A stretch of DNA of 21,248 bases, taken from positions 1-21,248 of IMG/VR virus record IMGVR_UViG_3300042865_000540. One strand, 5' to 3'. Position numbers and translations under genes: made by a program. Shown piece by piece: positions 687 through 21,248 of this stretch (positions are counted from its first letter, which is position 1; each line of letters opens with the position of its first letter). The notes beneath the pieces are model-generated. The model did not search any database and had not been told where the DNA came from. It saw only the letters and a list, made by a program, of their open reading frames with translations. The DNA is from a virus.

Positions 687-1130
687 ATGGCAAGGCGATT
701 CAATGACGATGACGATGGCGGCGCGCTTGACCCGCTGAAGACTGCACGGCGAGAGCTGGTATTGAGGCAAATCAGGAATGAAGACCTGAAGATGGCCGTG
801 GCCGAGGGCCAGTTGATGCGGACCGATGTGCACCGCGAGGTCATGTCTGAAATCATCTCCACCATGATCACATTCTTGGACACGCTGCCGGACGTGATGG
901 AGCGAAAGCTGGCCTTGAACTCAACAGTGGTGGTCGCCATGCGTGACTTGGTGGACAACGCCAGGGATGGCTTGCATGAAAAGCTGATGGCCGTTGTTCC
1001 GCCGGACTCGAGCAAGCAAGAACCTGGACAACTTAACAGCGCCCCCCCACTGCCGGCCGGAGCTGCACCCGCAAAACGCAGACCCGGACGACCAACGAAC
1101 GCCGAGCGCGCAATGCGAGGTGGCATCTGA
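687..1130 (+). CDS. terminase small subunit-like DNA packaging protein
   Basis: Predicted 147-residue protein. The core (about residues 18-100) is helical and matches the part of Nu1-type small terminase subunits downstream of their DNA-binding domain: LKTARRELVLRQIRNEDLK, a GQL-x-R-x-DV-HREV segment, and TFLDTLPDVMERKL. The usual N-terminal winged helix is missing. Instead there is an acidic DDDD run at the start and a basic C-terminal tail with KRRPGRPT (residues 130-137), which looks like an AT-hook. Small subunits recognise the packaging site and load the large subunit. ATG 687 is chosen because AGGA at 675-678 is 8 bases upstream; the in-frame TTG at 681 is too close to it. The stop overlaps the terminase large subunit start (TGATG), showing translational coupling. 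Identification rests on the core pattern and the neighbour, so it is good but not certain. Confidence 0.75.
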   Translation: MARRFNDDDDGGALDPLKTARRELVLRQIRNEDLKMAVAEGQLMRTDVHREVMSEIISTMITFLDTLPDVMERKLALNSTVVVAMRDLVDNARDGLHEKLMAVVPPDSSKQEPGQLNSAPPLPAGAAPAKRRPGRPTNAERAMRGGI

Positions 1131-3202
1131 TGATCGAAGAACCGTATCACGAAGCGTACAAAAAGAACAAGCTCAAGTCCGGCCGTGAGCAGGCCATTGG
1201 GGTTTTTGAGCGAGTTCGTGCACCGCGCAGAATTTCGATGTCTCAGGCATGCCGTGAGTACATGCGGATCAGCACGCCAGGCGGCTACGATGGGCCGTGG
1301 AGTTCGGACGTCGCGCCCTACATGGTTGAGCCCATGGATGCCAGTGTCAGTAGAGAGTACGAGGCGGTGGTTTTTGTTGGCGTTGCGCAGTCCGGCAAGA
1401 CCGCATCTCTGGCAGAGGGTGCGATCACATACTCTGTGGTAGTGGACCCGTCAGACTGCACGCTGATCATGCCATCTCAGGACTCGGCCAGGGACTTCAG
1501 CAAGCGCCGCCTTGACCGGCTTGTGCGGAACTCCCCTGAGCTTCGCTCGCGTGTCGGCGGCGGGCAGGATGACAACGTCCTCGACAAGGTGACAACTGCC
1601 GGGGCGATCCTGACGCTTGGCTGGCCAACAGTCAGCCAGTTGGCGTCCAAGAACATCAAGCGCATCATCCTGTCCGACCTTGACCGCATGCCTGCCGATA
1701 TTGGCGGCGAGGGCGATCCGTTCAGCTTGGCCAAAAAGCGCACCCAGAGCTTCATGTCTGCTGGCAAGGTCATTGCCGAAAGCACACCCGGTTACTACGT
1801 GACGGACGCCGACTGGAAACCGCCATCGCCGGACTCCCACATGCCGCCTCCGGTTGCCGGTGGCGTGTTGCAGCTTTACGCGCAAGGGACCATGGAACGC
1901 TGGTACTGGAAGTGCCCGCATTGCAGCGAGATGTTTCGCGCTGAGATGCAGCATTTCAGGTGGGATGACCTGCCGGACCCATCGGAGGCGGCTGCAACCG
2001 CTCACATTGCCTGCCCTGAGTGCGGCGGCGTGATCGAGGAAAAGCACAAGCAGGCGCTGAACTTGGCTGGCAGGTGGTTGCCGGACGGCTGGCGGGATGG
2101 AAAGCCAAGGGTGGCGAGAATACGAAGTTTTTGGATGCAAGGTGTGGCGGCAGCTTTTCAGCGGTGGTCATCGCTGGCCTACAACATGATCGCTGCCCGG
2201 CGAGAGTTTGCTGAGTCCGGTGCTGTGGAGCGGCTGAAGGTTGTAACGAACGTTGACTGGGGTTTGCCGTTCACGCAGCCAGCCTCTATGTCTGAGCGGT
2301 CATCGACCGGTTTGCAGGCGCTCTCTGAGCATTACTCGCTTGGCGTTGTCCCGCCAGAAGGACGGTTTCTTGTGGCATCGGTTGACATGCAGATCAACCG
2401 CTTTGTGTTGCAGGTTGTCGCCCATGGGAAGAGCAACGAGCGTTGGCTGGTGGATCGGCGAAACATAACCGAGTCACCGAGGGTCATGGCGGACGGATCA
2501 AAAGCGCGGGTTGAGCCATTCACGCACCCGGAGGACTTCAACGCCCTGCTGCCCATCCTGACCGATCTAAAGTACCCGGACTCAAGCGGCGGCGACATGA
2601 ATGTGCGCGTCATGACGCTGGACACCGGCGGCAAAGATGAGGCAGCTGTCAACGCCTACGCCTTTTGGCGCAAGGCTGCAGGACTCGGGCTCGCGGATCG
2701 GCTCATGCTGATCAAGGGCAGCGGCCTGCCGGGTGCCAAGCGGCTGAACCGGTCAACAGCTCAAAAGGTTGACGGTGTACCGCTGTGGATCGTTGGCACA
2801 AATATTATCAAGACAGAGGTGGCCTTTGACTTGATAAGGCAGGACCCTGGCCCTGGGAAAATCCACACTTCAAGCGAGCTACAAAGTTGGTTCTTCGACG
2901 AGCTTGCAGCCGAGGAGCAAGACCCGGCAACAGGGAAATGGTTTAAGAAGAACGCGAAAGGCAAAAACGAGGCGTTAGACTTGTTGGTTTACGACGCTGC
3001 AGCCTATATTGCCATCGGCGGAGAGGGTTTGCAGTGGGATGAAGAGGAGAAGTTGCCGGTTTGGGCGCGTCGTAGGGTTCCGGCACCTCCCGAGCCAGAA
3101 TTTCCAGCTCAAACCATAATTAATCCAGCATCCAGAGCCGCCGATCCAACTCAGTCGGGCAAGATTGACTGGGCCGCGCTTGGAGAAAGCATGAACGGGT
3201 GA
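1130..3202 (+). CDS. terminase large subunit (lambda gpA family)
   Basis: 690-residue packaging motor that cuts concatemeric DNA and pumps it through the portal using ATP. The N-terminal ATPase shows a Walker-A-like loop VAQSGKT (residues 85-91) and a Walker-B-like strand IILSDLDRM (179-187). Two CxxC pairs (CPHC near 262-265, CPEC near 295-298) form a likely zinc-binding knuckle, common in this family. The C-terminal nuclease part shows acidic residues in the expected strands: VASVDM (D419), TLDTGG (D498) and ALDLLVYDAAAY near residue 630. Length is close to lambda gpA (641 aa). The start overlaps the small subunit stop by one base. No frameshift or missing key residue was seen. This is the clearest anchor for assigning the window to a lambda-like late region. 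Confidence 0.96.
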   Translation: MIEEPYHEAYKKNKLKSGREQAIGVFERVRAPRRISMSQACREYMRISTPGGYDGPWSSDVAPYMVEPMDASVSREYEAVVFVGVAQSGKTASLAEGAITYSVVVDPSDCTLIMPSQDSARDFSKRRLDRLVRNSPELRSRVGGGQDDNVLDKVTTAGAILTLGWPTVSQLASKNIKRIILSDLDRMPADIGGEGDPFSLAKKRTQSFMSAGKVIAESTPGYYVTDADWKPPSPDSHMPPPVAGGVLQLYAQGTMERWYWKCPHCSEMFRAEMQHFRWDDLPDPSEAAATAHIACPECGGVIEEKHKQALNLAGRWLPDGWRDGKPRVARIRSFWMQGVAAAFQRWSSLAYNMIAARREFAESGAVERLKVVTNVDWGLPFTQPASMSERSSTGLQALSEHYSLGVVPPEGRFLVASVDMQINRFVLQVVAHGKSNERWLVDRRNITESPRVMADGSKARVEPFTHPEDFNALLPILTDLKYPDSSGGDMNVRVMTLDTGGKDEAAVNAYAFWRKAAGLGLADRLMLIKGSGLPGAKRLNRSTAQKVDGVPLWIVGTNIIKTEVAFDLIRQDPGPGKIHTSSELQSWFFDELAAEEQDPATGKWFKKNAKGKNEALDLLVYDAAAYIAIGGEGLQWDEEEKLPVWARRRVPAPPEPEFPAQTIINPASRAADPTQSGKIDWAALGESMNG

Positions 3203-11003: not shown

Positions 11004-13295
11004 ATGGGATCGCAAATCGACAAACCGAATGACGAAGAATCTCTCGGCGCTTTTTTCACAGTGCAAGGCTGTGCAGCGGGCAAGACCGTGTGGAAGGTCA
11101 TTCCAGTGGACGACTGTGCTTGCGATCAGTCGGTCAAGTACGTTGATGAGGATGGTAATGTCTCCACAACCGAGCCCGATGGGTGGAGTGGTGTGGCGTG
11201 CGGTGGGCCGCTGCCACTCAAAAACACTGTCAGCGCCACAGCCCCTAGCTTGACCACCCCGGCAGACAACACGGCGTTCAAAAACCAAATTGTTACTGTT
11301 GGCGAAGTTCTTTATTTTGTTGACGATACCGGCAAAGCGGCGGTGGTCGAAAAGGCCACTCAACTGCCACTCACAAACACATCAAGCGGAACGGCTCCGA
11401 GCACCGCTGATCCTTTACTGAACACCGCTTTCAAAAATCAGATGGTGACCGTTGGAGGCGTTGTTTATTTCGTGGACAGCAATGGCAAGGCTGTGATTGT
11501 TGAACGGGCCGAACAAGCACTAGCAGAGCCTGTGTCTTTTGCAATTGCAATTGGCACCCAAGCCCAACTCACAGCGTTGGCAAACAAGGTTCCAGGTGAA
11601 CGGTACATCGTCACCGACGGCCCAAACGCAGGTGATGTGTTACGGTGGAACGTTGATACCAACGCTGCCGGAGCAGTGTTGTCTAGTTCTTTTGGTGTAG
11701 CCAAGACCACTCCCGCATTGGTTAACGGTGAAAAGTGGACCATCCTCACCAACGCCACCGGCTCGCCTGCTGGCGTCTACATTTACACATTGGCAACAGA
11801 CACATGGGCGAAGGCATCTGACGTGCTCCCTCTTGTGTCTATTGCAAGCGGCCCGGTTTCTGCTGGCGGCATCCGAATGCCCGGCAGGTACTTAGCGCCA
11901 CGCTCAGACAACGGTGGAACGTACATACTCGGAGACTGCGTGGCAGGACACGGGCAATCAAATAGTTACCACACCGACGATGGCTCAATTGTCTCGCCAG
12001 CGGCGGGCGAAGGGGTCCGCAAGCGCCCGTTCACGTATTACCAAAACAACATTCCCTACGCGGCACTAAGCATTCGGGATGCTTGGGCTGTGGATGTTCA
12101 GATGAACAACGCAGGGGCGGTGGCAATTGACGATGTCGGGATCTTGTATTACTCAGGTTCTGCCGCATTCATGACCGCCATGACAGATTCGGACAACGGC
12201 GTATCTACTGCCATCACTCCCGCCTTTGTCCCGGATGCTTTCTGGGCCAAGCGGGCGGTAAAGGTCATCAAGTTCTGGTTGAGTTACGCCAGCAACAATT
12301 TGATCGCGTTAGCAGGAGATGGGACAATTTGGGTCCGAGGCGCGTCCGGCACATCTGGCATTTACGGCAACGGAACGGTCGTAGCAAATAAGGTTTGGAA
12401 CCAAGTTGCCATTCCTGCAAAGAAGTACACCAAGATTTACATCGCAGCCGACGCCACGCCATGCTGTGGGGCTTTGGGCGCAGATGGAACTATGTATGTT
12501 TGGGGTGCGAATGCAACTCAGCGCATATTAGCGGGGGCAACGACAGTTATCTCCACGCCAACGCTTGTGCCTGGTTTTGTTGGAAACCCGATAACAGATT
12601 TCGCAATGGACGCAAACAGCACGATGCTGATAGCAGGCGGCGTTCGTCATGCAATTGGCATCAATACAACAGCCGGAAAGTTTGGGGATGGTACTGGCAA
12701 TGCAAACACCGTATATGAAGCGCTTCCAAGTAACGGATTCGTTTACAGTAAAGTATTCTCCGGTGACGCAGATGGTAGTGAGTTTTATTACTACCTAACT
12801 ACCGACAAACGTGCAGTTATGACCGGCCGGAACAATCAACAGTTTAACTCAGGAGCTTCCGGTGCCAATATTACCACCCCAACATTGATGGGGACGGGAG
12901 CATATCAAGGCAGCGTGATTGACATTCGTGCCCATGCAGGCAGCGCCTTGATTCACACAGACCAAGGTACAGTCTGGACATCTGTAGGCGCAACGGGCGC
13001 TGCAAACGGGGAAAATGGCTGGGGCACAAACGCCGTTTTAGCTTCGGGTCAAAACTTGTTTAAGCGAGTGCCTGTGCCAGGGCTGGTCGTAGGGGTGCAA
13101 TCAAGTTCAAACAGTGTGGCGTCAACTTTTGGCGCTCAGTACACGGTGCTGACAGATCGCGGGATTTTGTACTCGTGGGGTGCTGCTGCATTTCAAATCG
13201 GTAACCAAATTCGATTCGCACCGGCTGAGATACCAACACAGGGTTTCAGGCAGTTGACGCCAAAGACCAACTCTCAACTTGACCTGGCCCCATAA
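11004..13295 (+). CDS. large virion protein with RCC1-like beta-propeller
   Basis: 763 residues in four parts. Residues 1-68 are the module shared with the previous gene. Residues 70-171 are a tandem pair of 51-residue repeats (34 of 51 identical) containing NTAFKNQ-VTVG..YFVD. Residues 172-340 are beta-rich, of tail-fibre type (GERYIVTDGPNAGDVLRWN). From about 365 to 745, seven segments of 35-50 residues fit the RCC1 pattern 'DG.+Y.WG.N....G.G......P..+': near 367, 433, 489, 541, 594, 648 and 713, clearest in ADGTMYVWGANAT and TDRGILYSWGAA. Seven blades would close a propeller. AAGGA at 10994-10998 is the ribosome binding site. Such a protein most likely binds a ligand on the host surface, as a tail or head fibre. 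Whether it sits on the capsid or the tail cannot be told. Confidence 0.8.
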   Translation: MGSQIDKPNDEESLGAFFTVQGCAAGKTVWKVIPVDDCACDQSVKYVDEDGNVSTTEPDGWSGVACGGPLPLKNTVSATAPSLTTPADNTAFKNQIVTVGEVLYFVDDTGKAAVVEKATQLPLTNTSSGTAPSTADPLLNTAFKNQMVTVGGVVYFVDSNGKAVIVERAEQALAEPVSFAIAIGTQAQLTALANKVPGERYIVTDGPNAGDVLRWNVDTNAAGAVLSSSFGVAKTTPALVNGEKWTILTNATGSPAGVYIYTLATDTWAKASDVLPLVSIASGPVSAGGIRMPGRYLAPRSDNGGTYILGDCVAGHGQSNSYHTDDGSIVSPAAGEGVRKRPFTYYQNNIPYAALSIRDAWAVDVQMNNAGAVAIDDVGILYYSGSAAFMTAMTDSDNGVSTAITPAFVPDAFWAKRAVKVIKFWLSYASNNLIALAGDGTIWVRGASGTSGIYGNGTVVANKVWNQVAIPAKKYTKIYIAADATPCCGALGADGTMYVWGANATQRILAGATTVISTPTLVPGFVGNPITDFAMDANSTMLIAGGVRHAIGINTTAGKFGDGTGNANTVYEALPSNGFVYSKVFSGDADGSEFYYYLTTDKRAVMTGRNNQQFNSGASGANITTPTLMGTGAYQGSVIDIRAHAGSALIHTDQGTVWTSVGATGAANGENGWGTNAVLASGQNLFKRVPVPGLVVGVQSSSNSVASTFGAQYTVLTDRGILYSWGAAAFQIGNQIRFAPAEIPTQGFRQLTPKTNSQLDLAP
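11109..11146 (+). repeat. 38-bp direct repeat, copy 2
   Basis: Second copy of the 10404-10441 sequence, in the corresponding place in the next gene, 705 bases downstream. The close, direct copies could recombine and delete or swap the intervening gene end. Confidence 0.85.
11211..11516 (+). repeat. two tandem 153-bp coding repeats (51 aa each)
   Basis: Copy 1 is 11211-11363 and copy 2 is 11364-11516, encoding residues 70-120 and 121-171 of the propeller protein. Thirty-four of 51 residues are identical, with conserved LPL.NT, TAPS, NTAFKNQ, VTVG and YFVD. The DNA has diverged more, so the duplication is old. The copies probably form repeated shaft or linker domains. Confidence 0.85.
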
Positions 13296-14133: not shown

Positions 14134-14225
14134 AGAGGCATGCGCTCGAAATGCAAATCCTTCGCGAGCGGCTGGCCGACTTGAAAATCCCTCAAGTGGA
14201 GATACAAAATGAGAACCCCGATTAA
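13887..14225 (+). CDS. putative holin
   Basis: 112 residues. A hydrophobic part at residues 17-52 (ILGGGSAAGAAGIYATLDVVTVVGVAVAVCGLLLQVM) can form two short helices, followed by a highly charged cytoplasmic tail (RRKAAKEEKRLSDEQRETDE) with coiled-coil character. The pattern resembles class II holins of the P2/HP1 kind, where the YGTSAG..-type start and the charged R-R-K-A tail are typical; the charged tail here is longer. Holins form membrane lesions at a set time and so trigger lysis. AGGGGT (13875-13880) is a strong ribosome binding site, 6 bases before ATG. The end overlaps the endolysin gene by 17 bases. Confidence 0.72.
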   Translation: MGTEATVEHAAEAWGFKILGGGSAAGAAGIYATLDVVTVVGVAVAVCGLLLQVMESYSRRKAAKEEKRLSDEQRETDERRGLERHALEMQILRERLADLKIPQVEIQNENPD

Positions 14226-14655
14226 GTCAATCACCGCACTGGCTGCGGCTGCTGCGGCCTTGGTTTTTCTGCCACCGCCGACCGAGTCGCCAAAGCTATC
14301 GAACTACCAAGCCCGGTGCTCGCAGGCCATTGCTTACTTCATCACGCAGATACCCCGCATCGACAACGGCAGGCATCAAGTGACGATGGGTGAGGCGCAC
14401 CGACCCGAGTGGGTTGCCTTGGGCTACGCAAAACAAGGCGTGGGGATCGCTGAATCACTGCACACGAAACGCTTGGCCGTGGACCTGCTGCTGTTCACGG
14501 ACGGCGTGTTTCAAAGTCAACCCGAAGCCTACAAACCATTGGCCGAACTGTGGATGCAGGTCGCTCCACCATTCGGCGTTCATCCAGCCGCCGGGTACTT
14601 TTTTAAGTCGAAAGACGCTGTGCATTTCTCTTGTACTCATGGTGGATACAAGTGA
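14209..14655 (+). CDS. endolysin, M15-type peptidase with N-terminal signal/anchor
   Basis: 148 residues. Zinc ligands of the M15 (VanY/L-Ala-D-Glu peptidase) fold are in place: SLHTKRLAVDL supplies H85 and D92, and DAVHFSC supplies H139; LAELW carries the probable catalytic acid E113. Such enzymes cut the peptide stems of peptidoglycan. Residues 8-21 (ITALAAAAAALVFLPPP with its flank) form an Ala-rich hydrophobic segment, so it may be a signal peptide or a signal-arrest-release anchor; export would then not need the holin pore. GGAG at 14198-14201 is the ribosome binding site. It overlaps the holin by 17 bases and its stop overlaps the GTG start of the spanin. The length is that of lambdoid M15 endolysins. 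Confidence 0.82.
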   Translation: MRTPIKSITALAAAAAALVFLPPPTESPKLSNYQARCSQAIAYFITQIPRIDNGRHQVTMGEAHRPEWVALGYAKQGVGIAESLHTKRLAVDLLLFTDGVFQSQPEAYKPLAELWMQVAPPFGVHPAAGYFFKSKDAVHFSCTHGGYK

Positions 14656-15065
14656 TTCGAGCTGCTGTCATCTCTGGTGTCGCCGCTGCGCTTATGGGTT
14701 TGTCCTTCTTTGGCGGGCACCAATCGGGCGTGGGGAAAGAGCGCGCCCATTGGCTGGCGCTGGAAAACGCCACCTTGCGCGAGCAAGCCAAGGAAATCAC
14801 CCGGCAGGTCGAAGCCGTTGCCGAAAAACAGAAAGACTACAACCATGCCCAAACTCAGATTGCTGACGCTGCTGTGCGCGTGCGCAGCGCTGACAGGATG
14901 CGCGTCAAAGCAGAGCACGAAGCCGCCATTGAGCGTGCCAGCGCCGGGAATCTCCGAAACTATGCAGCCAAAACCATCGGACTTTTTGAAGCGTGTCGAA
15001 AAGAATACATCGAGCTGGGACTTGAGGCAGCAAGAACTGCTGCGAGTGCTCAATCCATGAATTGA
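14652..15065 (+). CDS. i-spanin (Rz-like inner membrane subunit)
   Basis: 137 residues from GTG 14652. Residues 3-23 form one N-terminal membrane helix (AAVISGVAAALMGLSFFGG), then a long charged helix rich in Ala, Glu and Lys (residues 35-110) forms the periplasmic coiled coil. This is the layout of lambda Rz (153 aa). Paired with the Rz1 lipoprotein it fuses inner and outer membranes at the last step of lysis. GTG 14652 overlaps the endolysin stop and is preceded by a GGTGG stretch 6 bases upstream; a TTG at 14631 would add 7 residues. The stop is 26 bases before a promoter-like element. Complete nesting of Rz1 supports the identification. Confidence 0.85.
   Translation: MIRAAVISGVAAALMGLSFFGGHQSGVGKERAHWLALENATLREQAKEITRQVEAVAEKQKDYNHAQTQIADAAVRVRSADRMRVKAEHEAAIERASAGNLRNYAAKTIGLFEACRKEYIELGLEAARTAASAQSMN
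14845..15060 (+). CDS. o-spanin (Rz1-like outer membrane lipoprotein), nested in Rz
   Basis: 71 residues, read in a different frame wholly inside the Rz gene. It has a short lipoprotein signal MPKLRLLTLLCACAALTGC, with lipobox LTGC and acylated Cys19. The mature part is about 53 residues with a Pro-rich stretch KPPLSVPAPG, as in lambda Rz1. It should be attached to the outer membrane and meet Rz across the periplasm. The longer open frame beginning at 14677 is rejected because its first 56 residues are a shadow of Rz, and the ATG at 14845 gives a clean signal peptide. A weak GAAAG upstream at about 14831-14835 could be the ribosome binding site. Confidence 0.88.
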   Translation: MPKLRLLTLLCACAALTGCASKQSTKPPLSVPAPGISETMQPKPSDFLKRVEKNTSSWDLRQQELLRVLNP

Positions 15066-17210: not shown

Positions 17211-18020
17211 ATGGCTGAATGTACAACCGAAGTTAAGAACTGCTGCTTTGCAGGCATTGGAAGAATCTATCTGAAGCCATACGATCCATGTTGCGGCGCG
17301 GCCATCGAATCTTCTTCCGCTTACATTGGCTTGGGCAACTGCTCCAGCTTCAGCATTGATGCTGCCGTCTCTGAGCTGAAGGTCCCTAACTACATGGACA
17401 TTGGTGGTGGGACTGAATGTCAGACGTCGTGGATTGAGTCCGCGACTGCGAAAATCACTGGCATGTGCTTTTCTGCCGACAACTTTGCAAAATGCTGGTC
17501 TGGCGACATTTCTAAAAAAGCCGCACAAACGCAGACCATTGAAATCACTGTTCATGGCCTGGACACATTCATCCCGTTTCTGGACGCTGACGGCAACCCG
17601 ATCACGGACGTTGACACAGCCCAGTTCGTTGGCATTGGACTTGCTGCGGATGACGGCCCTGCAAAGCCAGGCCGCGACTTTGTTGCTACGCCAAACGGCC
17701 TGATAATCCCACCCGCAAGCCGACTGGTAACAACCAACTTTCCTTCGGCAACTGACGTTTCGGTGACGCACAGCGAGTACAGCCTGGTTGACATGCTGAC
17801 CACATCGGCAAAAGAATTCTCTCTGTTTTACAGCGGCGTGAACCGCTTTGGCAACAAGCCATTCAGTGTTTACCTGTATCGCGTCAAAATGAATCCAGTC
17901 AATGGAATCCCGCTGATCGGCACAGACGTTGCATCGGCCGAATACATGCTGGAAATCCTGCGCGATCCATGCCGTGGTGAAGGCACCGGCTTTTCTCAGT
18001 ACGGCAGCCTGGCCATCTGA
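17211..18020 (+). CDS. major tail tube protein (gpV-like)
   Basis: 269 residues; the position and shape fit a siphophage tail tube. It has an initial beta part with GRIYLKPYDP, a GLGNCSSFSIDAAVSELKVPNY segment, a GGGTECQTSWIES region and KITGMCFSADNFAKCW, where a helix follows the tube strand; the GGGT...IES pattern with the 'SADNFAKC' helix is typical of tube proteins. A C-terminal portion with SRLVTTNFPSATDVSVTH may be a second, Ig-like domain. Ten cysteines are present (KNCC and DPCC near the start). AAAGGGAA upstream of ATG 17211 is a strong ribosome binding site. Its stop overlaps the next start (TGATG). High expression is expected. Confidence 0.8.
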   Translation: MAECTTEVKNCCFAGIGRIYLKPYDPCCGAAIESSSAYIGLGNCSSFSIDAAVSELKVPNYMDIGGGTECQTSWIESATAKITGMCFSADNFAKCWSGDISKKAAQTQTIEITVHGLDTFIPFLDADGNPITDVDTAQFVGIGLAADDGPAKPGRDFVATPNGLIIPPASRLVTTNFPSATDVSVTHSEYSLVDMLTTSAKEFSLFYSGVNRFGNKPFSVYLYRVKMNPVNGIPLIGTDVASAEYMLEILRDPCRGEGTGFSQYGSLAI

Positions 18021-18511
18021 TGTCCGATTGCTGCGCCTTCTATCGCGGCAAAGTAAGTTTCTCGTCAGAGCCTGAAGTCTGGCGAGAAATTGGCAATGCC
18101 AGCCGCCTTGTGTTGATGCCGGTTGTGGACGACATGGTTCCACTTGACGCCGACCTTAATGACACTTGCTGCGGCTGGATTTCGTGTGGGATCGAACTCA
18201 CCTTCAGTTGCATGACGCCTGAGAACTTGTCGATGGCGCTCAGTTCGCTTCTTGAATACGGCCCGAGTCAGGCCAGGCATAACGCTGGCACGCGGTGCGG
18301 AGCCAGGGGAGCTTTAAAGTTCGATGGGTTTAATCAATTTGGTGGACAAATTCAGTTATTTGTTCCATATGTTGAATTTCGCCCAACAGGAAATCTAAAT
18401 ATGATTAGCACAGAAATAGAGCAAATCACACTTACAGGCAGCGTCCGTTTGAAAAATACCAGCGAAGGAACTTGGTTTAATGTGGTGACTTATTCTGAAG
18501 AAACCTGTTAA
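18020..18511 (+). CDS. second tail-tube-like protein
   Basis: 163 residues. It is start-stop coupled to the tube gene (TGATG). Its GIELTFSCMTPENLSMALSS segment has the same form as KITGMCFSADNFAKCW in the tube protein and as the '-PENLALAL-' helix of many tube proteins; SRLVLMPVVDDMVPLDADL also fits a tube strand pair. It may be a tube paralogue used at a special level, for example the tip or the terminator ring, or a domain split off from the tube gene. Eight cysteines, with CC pairs (SDCCAF, DTCCGW). The last third (from about base 18300) becomes AT-rich, about 33 % GC by hand count at 18361-18420. Assignment is moderate. Confidence 0.6.
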   Translation: MSDCCAFYRGKVSFSSEPEVWREIGNASRLVLMPVVDDMVPLDADLNDTCCGWISCGIELTFSCMTPENLSMALSSLLEYGPSQARHNAGTRCGARGALKFDGFNQFGGQIQLFVPYVEFRPTGNLNMISTEIEQITLTGSVRLKNTSEGTWFNVVTYSEETC

Positions 18512-18546: not shown

Positions 18547-18915
18547 ATGAGCAACATCGACGTTCTGTTTCCAGTTGAAAAAACAATCAAAATTCAAGAT
18601 AAAGATTTTACAATTCGTGAATTCCATGTTCGCGAGTTTCCACAGGTCGTAAAATTTGCCGCCAAAATCGGAATCAATGGACAAGACAACATCATGGAGG
18701 CCGTCGAGGGCAACATTCAAGATGTGCTTAATATTGTTGCCAGCATTACCAATCAGCCATTGGACGTTATTGAGTCCATGCGCCTTCCTGTCCTTTTGCA
18801 TCTGATCGAAAAGATTATTGAGGAGAACATCGATTTTTTCGTCGTGCAGCTTCCGGTGTCGCTGAACCGGGTGAGCAAAATGATGACGGGTGGTTTGACA
18901 CAGCCCAACTCCTGA
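18547..18915 (+). CDS. tail assembly chaperone, gpG-like
   Basis: 122 residues; lambda gpG is 140. It begins with a beta hairpin DVLFPVEKTIKIQDKDFTIREF and continues as helices (REFPQVVKFAAKIG, MRLPVLLHLIEKIIEENIDFF), the usual form for chaperones that coat the tape measure protein. AAAGG at 18536-18540 is the ribosome binding site. It stands between tail tube and tape measure genes, where the G/T pair always lies. The sequence T TTT TTC at 18834-18840 allows a -1 shift into a longer frame. Residues after F98 (VVQLPVSLNRVSKMM) are the non-shifted tail, as in the normal gpG product. The first half is AT-rich (30 % GC at 18541-18600). Confidence 0.85.
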   Translation: MSNIDVLFPVEKTIKIQDKDFTIREFHVREFPQVVKFAAKIGINGQDNIMEAVEGNIQDVLNIVASITNQPLDVIESMRLPVLLHLIEKIIEENIDFFVVQLPVSLNRVSKMMTGGLTQPNS

Positions 18916-19037
18916 TCAGCGAAGGCCACTCTCTTTTGGATGTCGGTGGCTACACTTTTAAGCAGGTTGATGCTTTTGTTTCTGCAGCGGTGCGCCAGCG
19001 ATCAAACCGCGCTCTTTTTGGCGCAATTGGAGCTTAA
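18547..19037 (+). CDS. tail assembly chaperone gpGT-like, -1 frameshift fusion
   Basis: Predicted 163-residue product made when ribosomes slip back one base at T TTT TTC (18834-18840). Codons 1-98 come from the G frame (18547-18840), then 65 codons are read from base 18840 to the TAA at 19035-19037. The added part begins RRAASGVAEPGEQNDDG, goes on WFDTAQLLISEGHSLLDVGG and ends SNRALFGAIGA; it is open, has no start of its own and looks like a genuine T domain (polar linker followed by a helical domain). In lambda about 4 % of ribosomes do this at G GGA AAG, giving gpGT, which links the tape measure to tube subunits. The shifted stop directly abuts the tape measure ATG (TAAATG). Confidence 0.85.
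18834..18840 (+). promoter_or_regulatory. -1 ribosomal frameshift slippery site T TTT TTC
   Basis: In frame with codon 96-98 of the gpG-like gene (GAT TTT TTC), so it fits X XXY YYZ. Downstream, CCGGT (18853-18857) and ACCGG (18866-18870) can pair as a 5-bp hairpin 12 bases beyond the slippery site, a possible but slightly distant stimulator. Confidence 0.8.
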
Positions 19038-21248
19038 ATGGCCACAACGCCAAAACTCAATATCACGATTTCTGGTGACACCAAAGAGTTGACCCAGGCC
19101 GTCAAGCAAGCAGAAGATGCGCTTGACAAAACATCGGACTCAGCAAAGGCCACAGCCGAGGCAATCAAGCAGATCAACAACACCTCAAAGGGGTTGCTTG
19201 AGGCCCGGGCGTCATTGGCGCAGCTGCAGCGCCAATTCACCGAAGTCAAAGATGCGGCGGTTCAAAGCGGAATTGGCATCACAAATGCCGTGCGCGACAA
19301 CTACCGAAAAGCCATTTCCACCGCTCGCGTGGAGGTTGCCAAAGAGCGCGAGGCGCTGGCAAAAGAGCTGGCCAGAAAGCCGATTGAAATCCCGGCAGAG
19401 GTGAAGGTAAGGACCGACACAAGCAAGGCGCGTGACGCAAATGGCCTTACGGCCGGTCAACTTAGGCAGGCTCAATCTACCTTACCAGCCCAGTTCACCG
19501 ACATCGTTGTTAGCTTGCAGGGCGGGCAAAACCCATTGAATGTTTTGCTTCAACAGGGCGGTCAGCTCAAGGATCAGTTTGGCGGCATTGGTGCGGCTGC
19601 GAGGTCAATGGGCGGATACATCGCGGCACTTGCCACGCCGGTGAATCTGGTTGTTTCGGCAGTCGCTGCCTTGGCCATTGCGTACAAGCAAGGCAGCGAA
19701 GAGGTTGACGCATTCAGGGCGGCCCTGGTGAACACTGGCAACGCCGCAGGAGCCAGCACAGACCAACTCGCAGGCATGGCCAACGCAATGGGGCAAGGCT
19801 TTGGGGCTACGGCAGGCAAGGCGGCTGAGGTGTTGGCTCAGTTGGCGGAAACAGGCCAGGTGGGCCGGGCCAGCTTGCAAGAATTCGCAAACGCAGCGAT
19901 ACAAGCGGAAAAGGCATTCGGCACAGCGACAGCCGACATCGTGAAGAACTTTGCGGAGTTGGGCAAAGACCCCGTGGGCGCTTCAGCGCGCCTGAACGAG
20001 TCGATGAATTACCTGACGGCCAGCACCTATGCTCAAATTCAAGCCGCCATCGACCTGGGCCAAGAATCCAAGGCCGCAGCCATTGCTCAAGAGGCTTATG
20101 CCAACGCCTTGAACGGCAGAAGTGGCGAGATGATTTCAAACCTAGGGAGCATCGAGAGGGCTTTCCGTGGGCTGATGAGCGTTGCGAAAGAAGCATGGGA
20201 CGCGATGCTTGGTGTTGGTCGCACAACCTCAATTGACGAGCAGCTCAAGAAGGCCCAAAAGCTGCTAGACGACACAAAGGGCGCACAAAAGCTCTATGGC
20301 GGCGAAAAATCGTTTTTCGGCAGCATGCTGGACGGCAACATAGCCAGGGCAACCGCAGAGGTGGAGCGGCTGCGAGAGATCGGCAGCCTGAACAAGCGTG
20401 CAGGCGACAGCGCCGCCGCACGCGCAGACAAAGAAAAGGCGGGAATCCAAGCCCAAAAAGACGGCTTGAAATACCTGAGCGATGAACAAAAGATGCGCAA
20501 AGACATTGCGCAGCAAACCGCAACGATGCGCAAGGCGGGGCTGGAGGAAAGCGCAGTCCAAGAGCGCATCGCCAAGATCAAAGAAAGCTACGCGAAAAAA
20601 GGCGGCTCTTCAGGCGGCGGTGGCGGGGGCTCAAAGCGCGAGGTCTTCGACCTTGCCAATCCAGAAGCGGAAAGCATGAAGCGAAGCCTGGAGCTGTTCA
20701 AGTTCTACCAGGCAGAGCAAGATCGTCTTTACAAGCTTGGAGAGATTTCAGCCTCTGCGTACTTCGACAAAAAAATAGCAGACATACAGGCCGAATCCGA
20801 GGCGCAGGCAATTTCCTACGAAAAACAGAAGGCCCGACTCGCCGCTGATTTGGGAAGCGCCAAGACGCCTGAAGGTCAGAATCGCGTTCGTGGGGCCATG
20901 GAGAAGGCTGCAACCGAAGACCAAAAGATTCAGTTGGACTTGGCAAGCAAGCTGCGCGACACAGACATTGCCAGGTCCGAGGCAATGCGAAAATACGCAG
21001 AGCAAGCAAACGCCATCAACATCAAGTACCTCGAACTGATCGGAAGCGCCACAACCGTAGAGGCTATTGAGGCGCGGCGGGTTGCGATCAATGCGAAGTA
21101 TGCTGATCAGATCAAGCAAGCATCCGAAGAGCAACGCGCACAAATTGACGTTATCAAGGCCGCTGAACTTGCCTCAGCAAACCTTGCCGCAATGCGATCC
21201 GAGCAGGCGAGAGAGCTTGTTCTATTATCAACCCGGCGCGCAGAAATT
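19038..21248 (+). CDS. tail tape measure protein (lambda gpH-type), 3' truncated
   Basis: 737 codons are seen, with no stop before the end of the window. Coiled-coil helices make up residues 1-150 (KELTQAVKQAEDALDKTSD). The family signature LPAQFTDIVVSL and NPLNVLLQQGGQLKDQFGG lies at 149-183, as in the prophage tail length tape measure family (TMP_2). A hydrophobic stretch follows at 201-216. The rest is Ala/Glu/Lys-rich helix with a glycine hinge (SSGGGGGGSK) near residue 535. The protein sets tail length, is coated by the G/GT chaperones and usually enters the host membrane on ejection. GGAG (19029-19032) is 5 bases before ATG 19038, which abuts the frameshift-product stop. Full length is expected to be larger (lambda gpH 853 aa). 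Confidence 0.92.
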   Translation, partial: MATTPKLNITISGDTKELTQAVKQAEDALDKTSDSAKATAEAIKQINNTSKGLLEARASLAQLQRQFTEVKDAAVQSGIGITNAVRDNYRKAISTARVEVAKEREALAKELARKPIEIPAEVKVRTDTSKARDANGLTAGQLRQAQSTLPAQFTDIVVSLQGGQNPLNVLLQQGGQLKDQFGGIGAAARSMGGYIAALATPVNLVVSAVAALAIAYKQGSEEVDAFRAALVNTGNAAGASTDQLAGMANAMGQGFGATAGKAAEVLAQLAETGQVGRASLQEFANAAIQAEKAFGTATADIVKNFAELGKDPVGASARLNESMNYLTASTYAQIQAAIDLGQESKAAAIAQEAYANALNGRSGEMISNLGSIERAFRGLMSVAKEAWDAMLGVGRTTSIDEQLKKAQKLLDDTKGAQKLYGGEKSFFGSMLDGNIARATAEVERLREIGSLNKRAGDSAAARADKEKAGIQAQKDGLKYLSDEQKMRKDIAQQTATMRKAGLEESAVQERIAKIKESYAKKGGSSGGGGGGSKREVFDLANPEAESMKRSLELFKFYQAEQDRLYKLGEISASAYFDKKIADIQAESEAQAISYEKQKARLAADLGSAKTPEGQNRVRGAMEKAATEDQKIQLDLASKLRDTDIARSEAMRKYAEQANAINIKYLELIGSATTVEAIEARRVAINAKYADQIKQASEEQRAQIDVIKAAELASANLAAMRSEQARELVLLSTRRAEI

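Follow-up and report, generated by a model that had tools for sequence, protein, structure and literature searches.

A lambda G/GT-type -1 frameshift with a probable Shine-Dalgarno-like stimulator predicted in the tail chaperone locus of an IMG/VR virus

The tail gene locus and its two reading frames

The window analyzed here is a stretch of 21,248 bases from an IMG/VR virus record. The tail genes in its 3' part run from the major tail protein through ORF 18020-18511, gene G, and a -1 extension (T) to the tape measure. Apart from the one extra ORF before G, this is the placement between major tail protein and tape measure that characterizes the G/GT class of tail assembly chaperones. The features are as follows.

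17211..18020, + strand: major tail protein with an Ig-like domain, likely partner of the T domain (phrog_807, E 1.8e-33)
18020-18511: ORF between the major tail protein and G (partial match to the phrog_807 family)
18547..18915, + strand: gene G, tail assembly chaperone, 0 frame, 122 aa (phrog_1442 "tail assembly chaperone," E 4.4e-12; AlphaFold fold matches)
18820..18825, + strand: Shine-Dalgarno (SD)-like GAGGAG, core AGGAG at 18821-18825, putative frameshift stimulator (anti-SD duplex of about -9.1 kcal/mol; enriched in relatives)
18834..18840, + strand: slippery heptamer T TTT TTC, in register with gene G (read from the sequence; kept in relatives)
18840..19037, + strand: T extension, -1 frame, 65 residues plus stop (phrog_14432, E 3.9e-7)
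18547..19037, + strand: predicted GT fusion, 163 aa, through a -1 shift at 18834-18840 (from the frames and from annotated frameshift products in relatives)
19038..21248, + strand: tape measure protein, N-terminal 737 aa, running off the contig (Pfam TMP_2, E 4.2e-64; phrog_24, E 3.8e-104)

A preliminary description made from the sequence alone had ended the G-like frame at 18915 and placed T TTT TTC exactly where the two frames can be joined, and both points stand. The bases GAT TTT TTC at 18832-18840 put 18834-18840 in register as X XXY YYZ. The -1 frame, described as open from 18840 to 19037, is in fact open from 18822, 18 bases 5' of 18840, and its stop adjoins the tape measure ATG at 19038, as had been noted. 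T was also said to have no start codon or ribosome binding site of its own. We found no ATG in the -1 frame between 18822 and 19037, and its full set of start-like codons (CTG 18912, ATC 18915, TTG 18936, GTG 18990, and ATT 19026) lies 3' of the domain's conserved Trp (residue 18), with no visible SD sequence before any of the five.

AlphaFold models of both halves are compact, with a pLDDT of 84.5 for G and 85.7 for the T extension, and the slip codons fall in the last modeled helix of G. Among viral folds, the G model comes closest to the DLP_5 chaperone (E 3.3e-4), and several tail assembly chaperones rank next; sequence and fold searches of the PDB gave no usable match, and a fold search with the T extension alone gave no significant match. 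The T extension is modeled as a three-helix domain behind a flexible linker, with a pLDDT of 94 to 98 across the helical core (residues 21 to 60). The preliminary description had predicted an acidic linker followed by a helical domain; the helical part agrees with the model, whereas the linker begins with the basic RRAASG and turns acidic only afterwards. The phrog_14432 match covers a conserved domain, GHxxxD[IV]xxYTxxQ, and an alignment of 45 extensions shows L25, G29, H30, D34, Y38, T39, and Q42 to be invariant. Pfam DUF6631 (PF20336) is matched by 24 of 48 G relatives and, judged by gene context, is likely the tail assembly chaperone G. A likely function is thereby assigned to DUF6631, phrog_14432, and phrog_13355, all of which are listed as having unknown function.

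Slippery heptamers are not rare in this window. Its genes contain 26 in-register X XXY YYZ heptamers in 6572 codons, and 8.7% of randomly chosen codons have a -1 frame that runs 65 codons or more without a stop. The heptamer at 18834 is the only one of the 26 whose -1 frame passes the end of its own gene and stops at the start of the next. Since heptamers are common and long -1 frames arise by chance, the single sequence is suggestive, and it is the comparison with relatives that decides. Another heptamer, C CCC CCA near 1043, lies in register close to the end of ORF 681-1130, and its -1 frame continues as a terminase-like ORF (1130-3202); this is probably a coincidence of ordinary gene overlap.

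Conservation of the slip site in distant relatives

A tblastn search of phages with G returned no match, and scans for related loci, whether based on G or on the major tail protein, found no close relatives of the window. Conservation is therefore read over distant relatives, with about 20% identity in G, to which the T extension, the major tail protein, and the tape measure led. Three relatives with matching gene order, Suso, HXX_Dennis, and Summit, are annotated as frameshift products: the GenBank entries of Suso and HXX_Dennis read "tape measure chaperone frameshift product" and "slippery sequence identified," and the Summit chaperone is given as a joined product. The heptamer is T TTT TTC in Suso, HXX_Dennis, and PotUPM1, T TTT TTT in DLP_5, DLP_3, Summit, and SM1, and T TTT TTG in QH16. 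In all of these phages it falls at the motif N-x-D/G/S-F-F/L, in register, and the -1 frame stays open as far as the tape measure; in an alignment of their T extensions, W, L, GH, YT, Q, and A are invariant.

We obtained a larger sample by scanning viral and bacterial contigs with a DNA pattern for the T motif alone, GHxxxD[IV]xxYT[FL]xQ, a search that is blind to the slip site. An upstream frame with an in-register heptamer, nearly always T TTT TTT or T TTT TTC, accompanies 209 of the 237 matches. Among the 208 genuine loci that have the N-x-x-F-F motif, 207 carry T TTT TT[T/C], and the sole exception (L318) contains an ambiguous base. Removal of near copies left 99 loci; the window is among them, as are five known phages in addition to those that had been merged.

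The preliminary description had proposed an alignment of homologous loci as a check on the heptamer, and T TTT TT[T/C/G] is indeed kept in 99/99 of the nonredundant loci. It is likewise present in 46 of the 48 loci of a second sample, which was collected with a protein profile of the extension from about 300 genomes in each of three bacterial orders. Measured against the codon usage of the same genes, the first Phe codon is TTT in all 99 loci (22.6 expected), and codon -1 ends in T in all 99 (33.0 expected). Such near-absolute conservation beyond the expectation from codon usage indicates selection on the nucleotides and not on the residues alone, placing the heptamer itself, beyond the protein, under strong selection. 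With conservation added, the sequence evidence for a predicted slip site at 18834-18840 is overwhelming.

Two Nitrospirae loci (L290, near 1743, and L292, near 4055) share the T motif and have the in-register heptamer A AAA AAC, which suggests that the heptamer is exchangeable within the T-motif family.

Signals flanking the heptamer

A small hairpin at 18853-18870 had been put forward in the preliminary description as a doubtful aid to frameshifting, and the doubt was justified. The stem is present as local pairing (22 nt, z -2.2, for a region chosen after the fact). Folding downstream of the heptamer in the window shows no excess over shuffled sequence (z 0.05 for 60 nt and -0.60 for 70 nt), 46 relatives have no common downstream structure (mean z -0.3 to -0.4), and the window has no Rfam match. 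We found neither a stem-loop nor a pseudoknot signal of the kind that accompanies SD-stimulated shifts, and we reject the downstream hairpin as a stimulator.

A better candidate, absent from the preliminary description, lies upstream. The AGGAG core at 18821-18825 ends 8 nt before the heptamer, compared with a spacing of 10 nt in Escherichia coli dnaX. In typical relatives, the residues E-V-N-A-D before the slip site are written GAG GTG AAC GCC GAT, which creates GAGGTGA, fully complementary to the 16S rRNA 3' end, 7 nt upstream. We compared the anti-SD energy at this site with that of a synonymous null, in which codons were drawn at the frequencies of the G and tape measure genes only. The mean energy peaks at the upstream site at -6.7 kcal/mol, versus -4.9 kcal/mol for the null (z -5.6, n = 99), and the excess persists when the set is clustered down to 56, 36, and 27 sequences (z -4.8, -4.2, and -4.4), although related sequences are not independent and these z-scores therefore overstate significance. 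Thirteen new sites give -7.5 versus -5.4 for the null (z -3.0).

Codon choice at the site points the same way. Codon -5 has G at its wobble position in 85 of 99 loci (54.6 expected). Glu before Val is encoded by GAG in 47 of 50 cases at codons -5/-4, compared with 112 of 174 elsewhere in the same genes (p 1.4e-5). An SD-like sequence at a suitable distance 5' of the heptamer thus appears to be under codon-level selection, and we read AGGAG as a putative frameshift stimulator, probably of the dnaX type.

For the large proteobacterial chaperone family as a whole, we lean toward the view that a conserved SD-like element 7 to 9 nt 5' of T TTT TTY acts as the stimulator and replaces downstream RNA structure. 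There is also a substantial possibility that the frameshift is real and the SD-like element is a by-product of conserved E/Q-V-N residues and GC-rich codon choice. E, V, and N are indeed conserved residues, the hosts are mainly GC rich, and wobble G is somewhat raised at codons -7, -11, and -12 as well, so the signal may be partly local composition. Some relatives also do without the element: it is weak or absent in three clear ones (L083, L152, and L253) and thus cannot be essential. A by-product of this kind accounts poorly for loci in which codon -5 does not encode Glu, where wobble G is still found in 27 of 37 cases against 15.4 expected and even the rare codons GGG and CGG are used. Nor does it readily explain why GAG is favored over GAA before Val at this site more than elsewhere in the same genes, or why the window, with 46% G+C around the site, has AGGAG nonetheless. 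The recurrence of the signal in the 13 new sites, and the lack of any anti-SD excess in 23 G GGA AAC chaperones from other families, likewise argue for a stimulator.

If the family-wide SD-like stimulator is real, it would represent a -1 frameshift stimulated from upstream only that tunes the tail chaperone ratio. The relatives show a second anti-SD excess, GGTGATG-like, at the equivalents of window positions 18842-18857 (+8 to +15 after the first Phe codon), in the overlap of the two frames.

Proposed frameshift, alternatives, and known systems

The frames, the heptamer, both protein families, the synteny, and the conservation of the heptamer together point to a lambda G/GT-type -1 frameshift. 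The preliminary description had proposed a -1 shift joining gpG to T, and the homology of both halves, the synteny, and the heptamer conservation support that proposal at the level of sequence. We consider a programmed -1 frameshift at T TTT TTC, with probable SD-like stimulation, to be the best explanation of the locus and hold it with high confidence. From these features we infer the slip and its efficiency, what gpG and gpGT do, and what the stimulator does, as follows. The majority of ribosomes translating G would terminate at 18915 and yield gpG (122 aa). In a minority, the tRNA-Phe molecules that occupy TTT TTC (18835-18840) in the ribosomal P and A sites would slip by -1 onto TTT TTT, and these ribosomes would read the -1 frame to 19037 and produce gpGT (163 aa). 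As in dnaX, slipping would probably become more frequent through base pairing, in elongating ribosomes, between the 16S rRNA 3' end and the AGGAG that lies 8 nt 5' of the heptamer. On the lambda model, gpG and gpGT would coat the tape measure encoded directly downstream with their G part, and gpGT, the rarer of the two, would use its T domain to recruit the major tail protein. On this proposal, the gpG:gpGT ratio would set correct tail assembly.

Two explanations without ribosomal slippage have to be weighed. T could be a separate gene, expressed from an internal start or by translational coupling, with the T run being incidental. Some annotators do call a small ORF here in relatives (e.g., DLP_5 gp016 and QH16), and TTG 18936 and GTG 18990 are present in the T frame. 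We regard a separate gene as very unlikely: the T frame has no ATG, its start-like codons lie within the domain, past the Trp and without an SD sequence, and no -1-frame start codon follows the SD-like element. A separate gene would also leave the third-base conservation of codon -1 and of the first Phe codon unexplained. Slippage of RNA polymerase on the T run could produce mRNAs of altered length and thus the same fusion; the site contains a homopolymer, and bacteria are known to show transcriptional slippage. It usually needs longer runs than 6 or 7 T, however, and the run is 6 or 7 in all 99 relatives and never longer. What is conserved is the in-register X XXY YYZ, and the SD-like element enriched upstream is a signal for translation. 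Polymerase slippage accordingly has the slimmest chance of the explanations considered, and we retain ribosomal frameshifting at the heptamer.

The G/GT system of lambda is established, as is its wide conservation (PMC5009743, summarizing Levin 1993 and Xu 2004, 2013, and 2014). In lambda as in the window, the gene lies between the major tail protein and the tape measure, the -1 shift falls near the 3' end of G, and a C-terminal T extension that lacks an ATG ends at the tape measure start. In contrast, the lambda heptamer is G GGA AAG rather than T TTT TTC, and the lambda proteins could not be aligned with those of the window by the searches used. T TTT TTC was proposed in 2014 as the -1 site joining two tail assembly ORFs in PaMx73 (PMC4378225). 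PaMx73 and the D3112-like Pseudomonas aeruginosa phages (core ORFs 35/36), likened to the window through this published site, share the heptamer and differ in having an overlapping ORF with a putative AUG (PMC4378225). Stenotrophomonas phage Suso and Xanthomonas phage HXX_Dennis (L082 and L094) resemble the window in synteny, in a homologous T domain (35% identity), and in T TTT TTC at the same motif; their G (192 aa) and T (95 aa) are longer and their SD-like element is weaker. The frameshift is thus not new in kind, its heptamer having been published for PaMx73 and annotated in Suso and HXX_Dennis.

The novel part here is the SD-like element upstream of the slip site. SD stimulation of -1 shifts is established for E. 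coli dnaX (PMC3711429, PMC5009743), which also has an SD-like sequence a short distance 5' of a -1 heptamer. dnaX is a different gene with the heptamer A AAA AAG and a hairpin, whereas the window has no supported downstream hairpin. PRFect takes an RBS score as a general feature. A search of freely available literature turned up no earlier description of a conserved SD-like element 5' of the slip sites in tail chaperone genes. Certain tailed-phage shifts seem to lack stimulatory signals (PMC5009743), unlike the window with its upstream element. If the SD-like element works, it would provide a stimulator in a type of frameshifting described as lacking one in those phages, and the gpG:gpGT ratio would become predictable and testable from sequence. 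The locus offers a clear, testable addition to the G/GT frameshift class.

Two further features lie elsewhere in the structural region of the window. ORF 11004-13295 (763 aa) has RCC1-like repeats (PF25390, E 1.7e-12; PF00415, E 2.9e-5) and sits between the capsid and tail genes, which is unusual in a phage structural region. Beside a peptidase-like ORF (14209-14655), between the head and tail genes, ORF 14677-15060 is nested in ORF 14631-15065 on the same strand in another frame and has a lipobox-like LTGC; the pair looks like an embedded Rz/Rz1 spanin pair.
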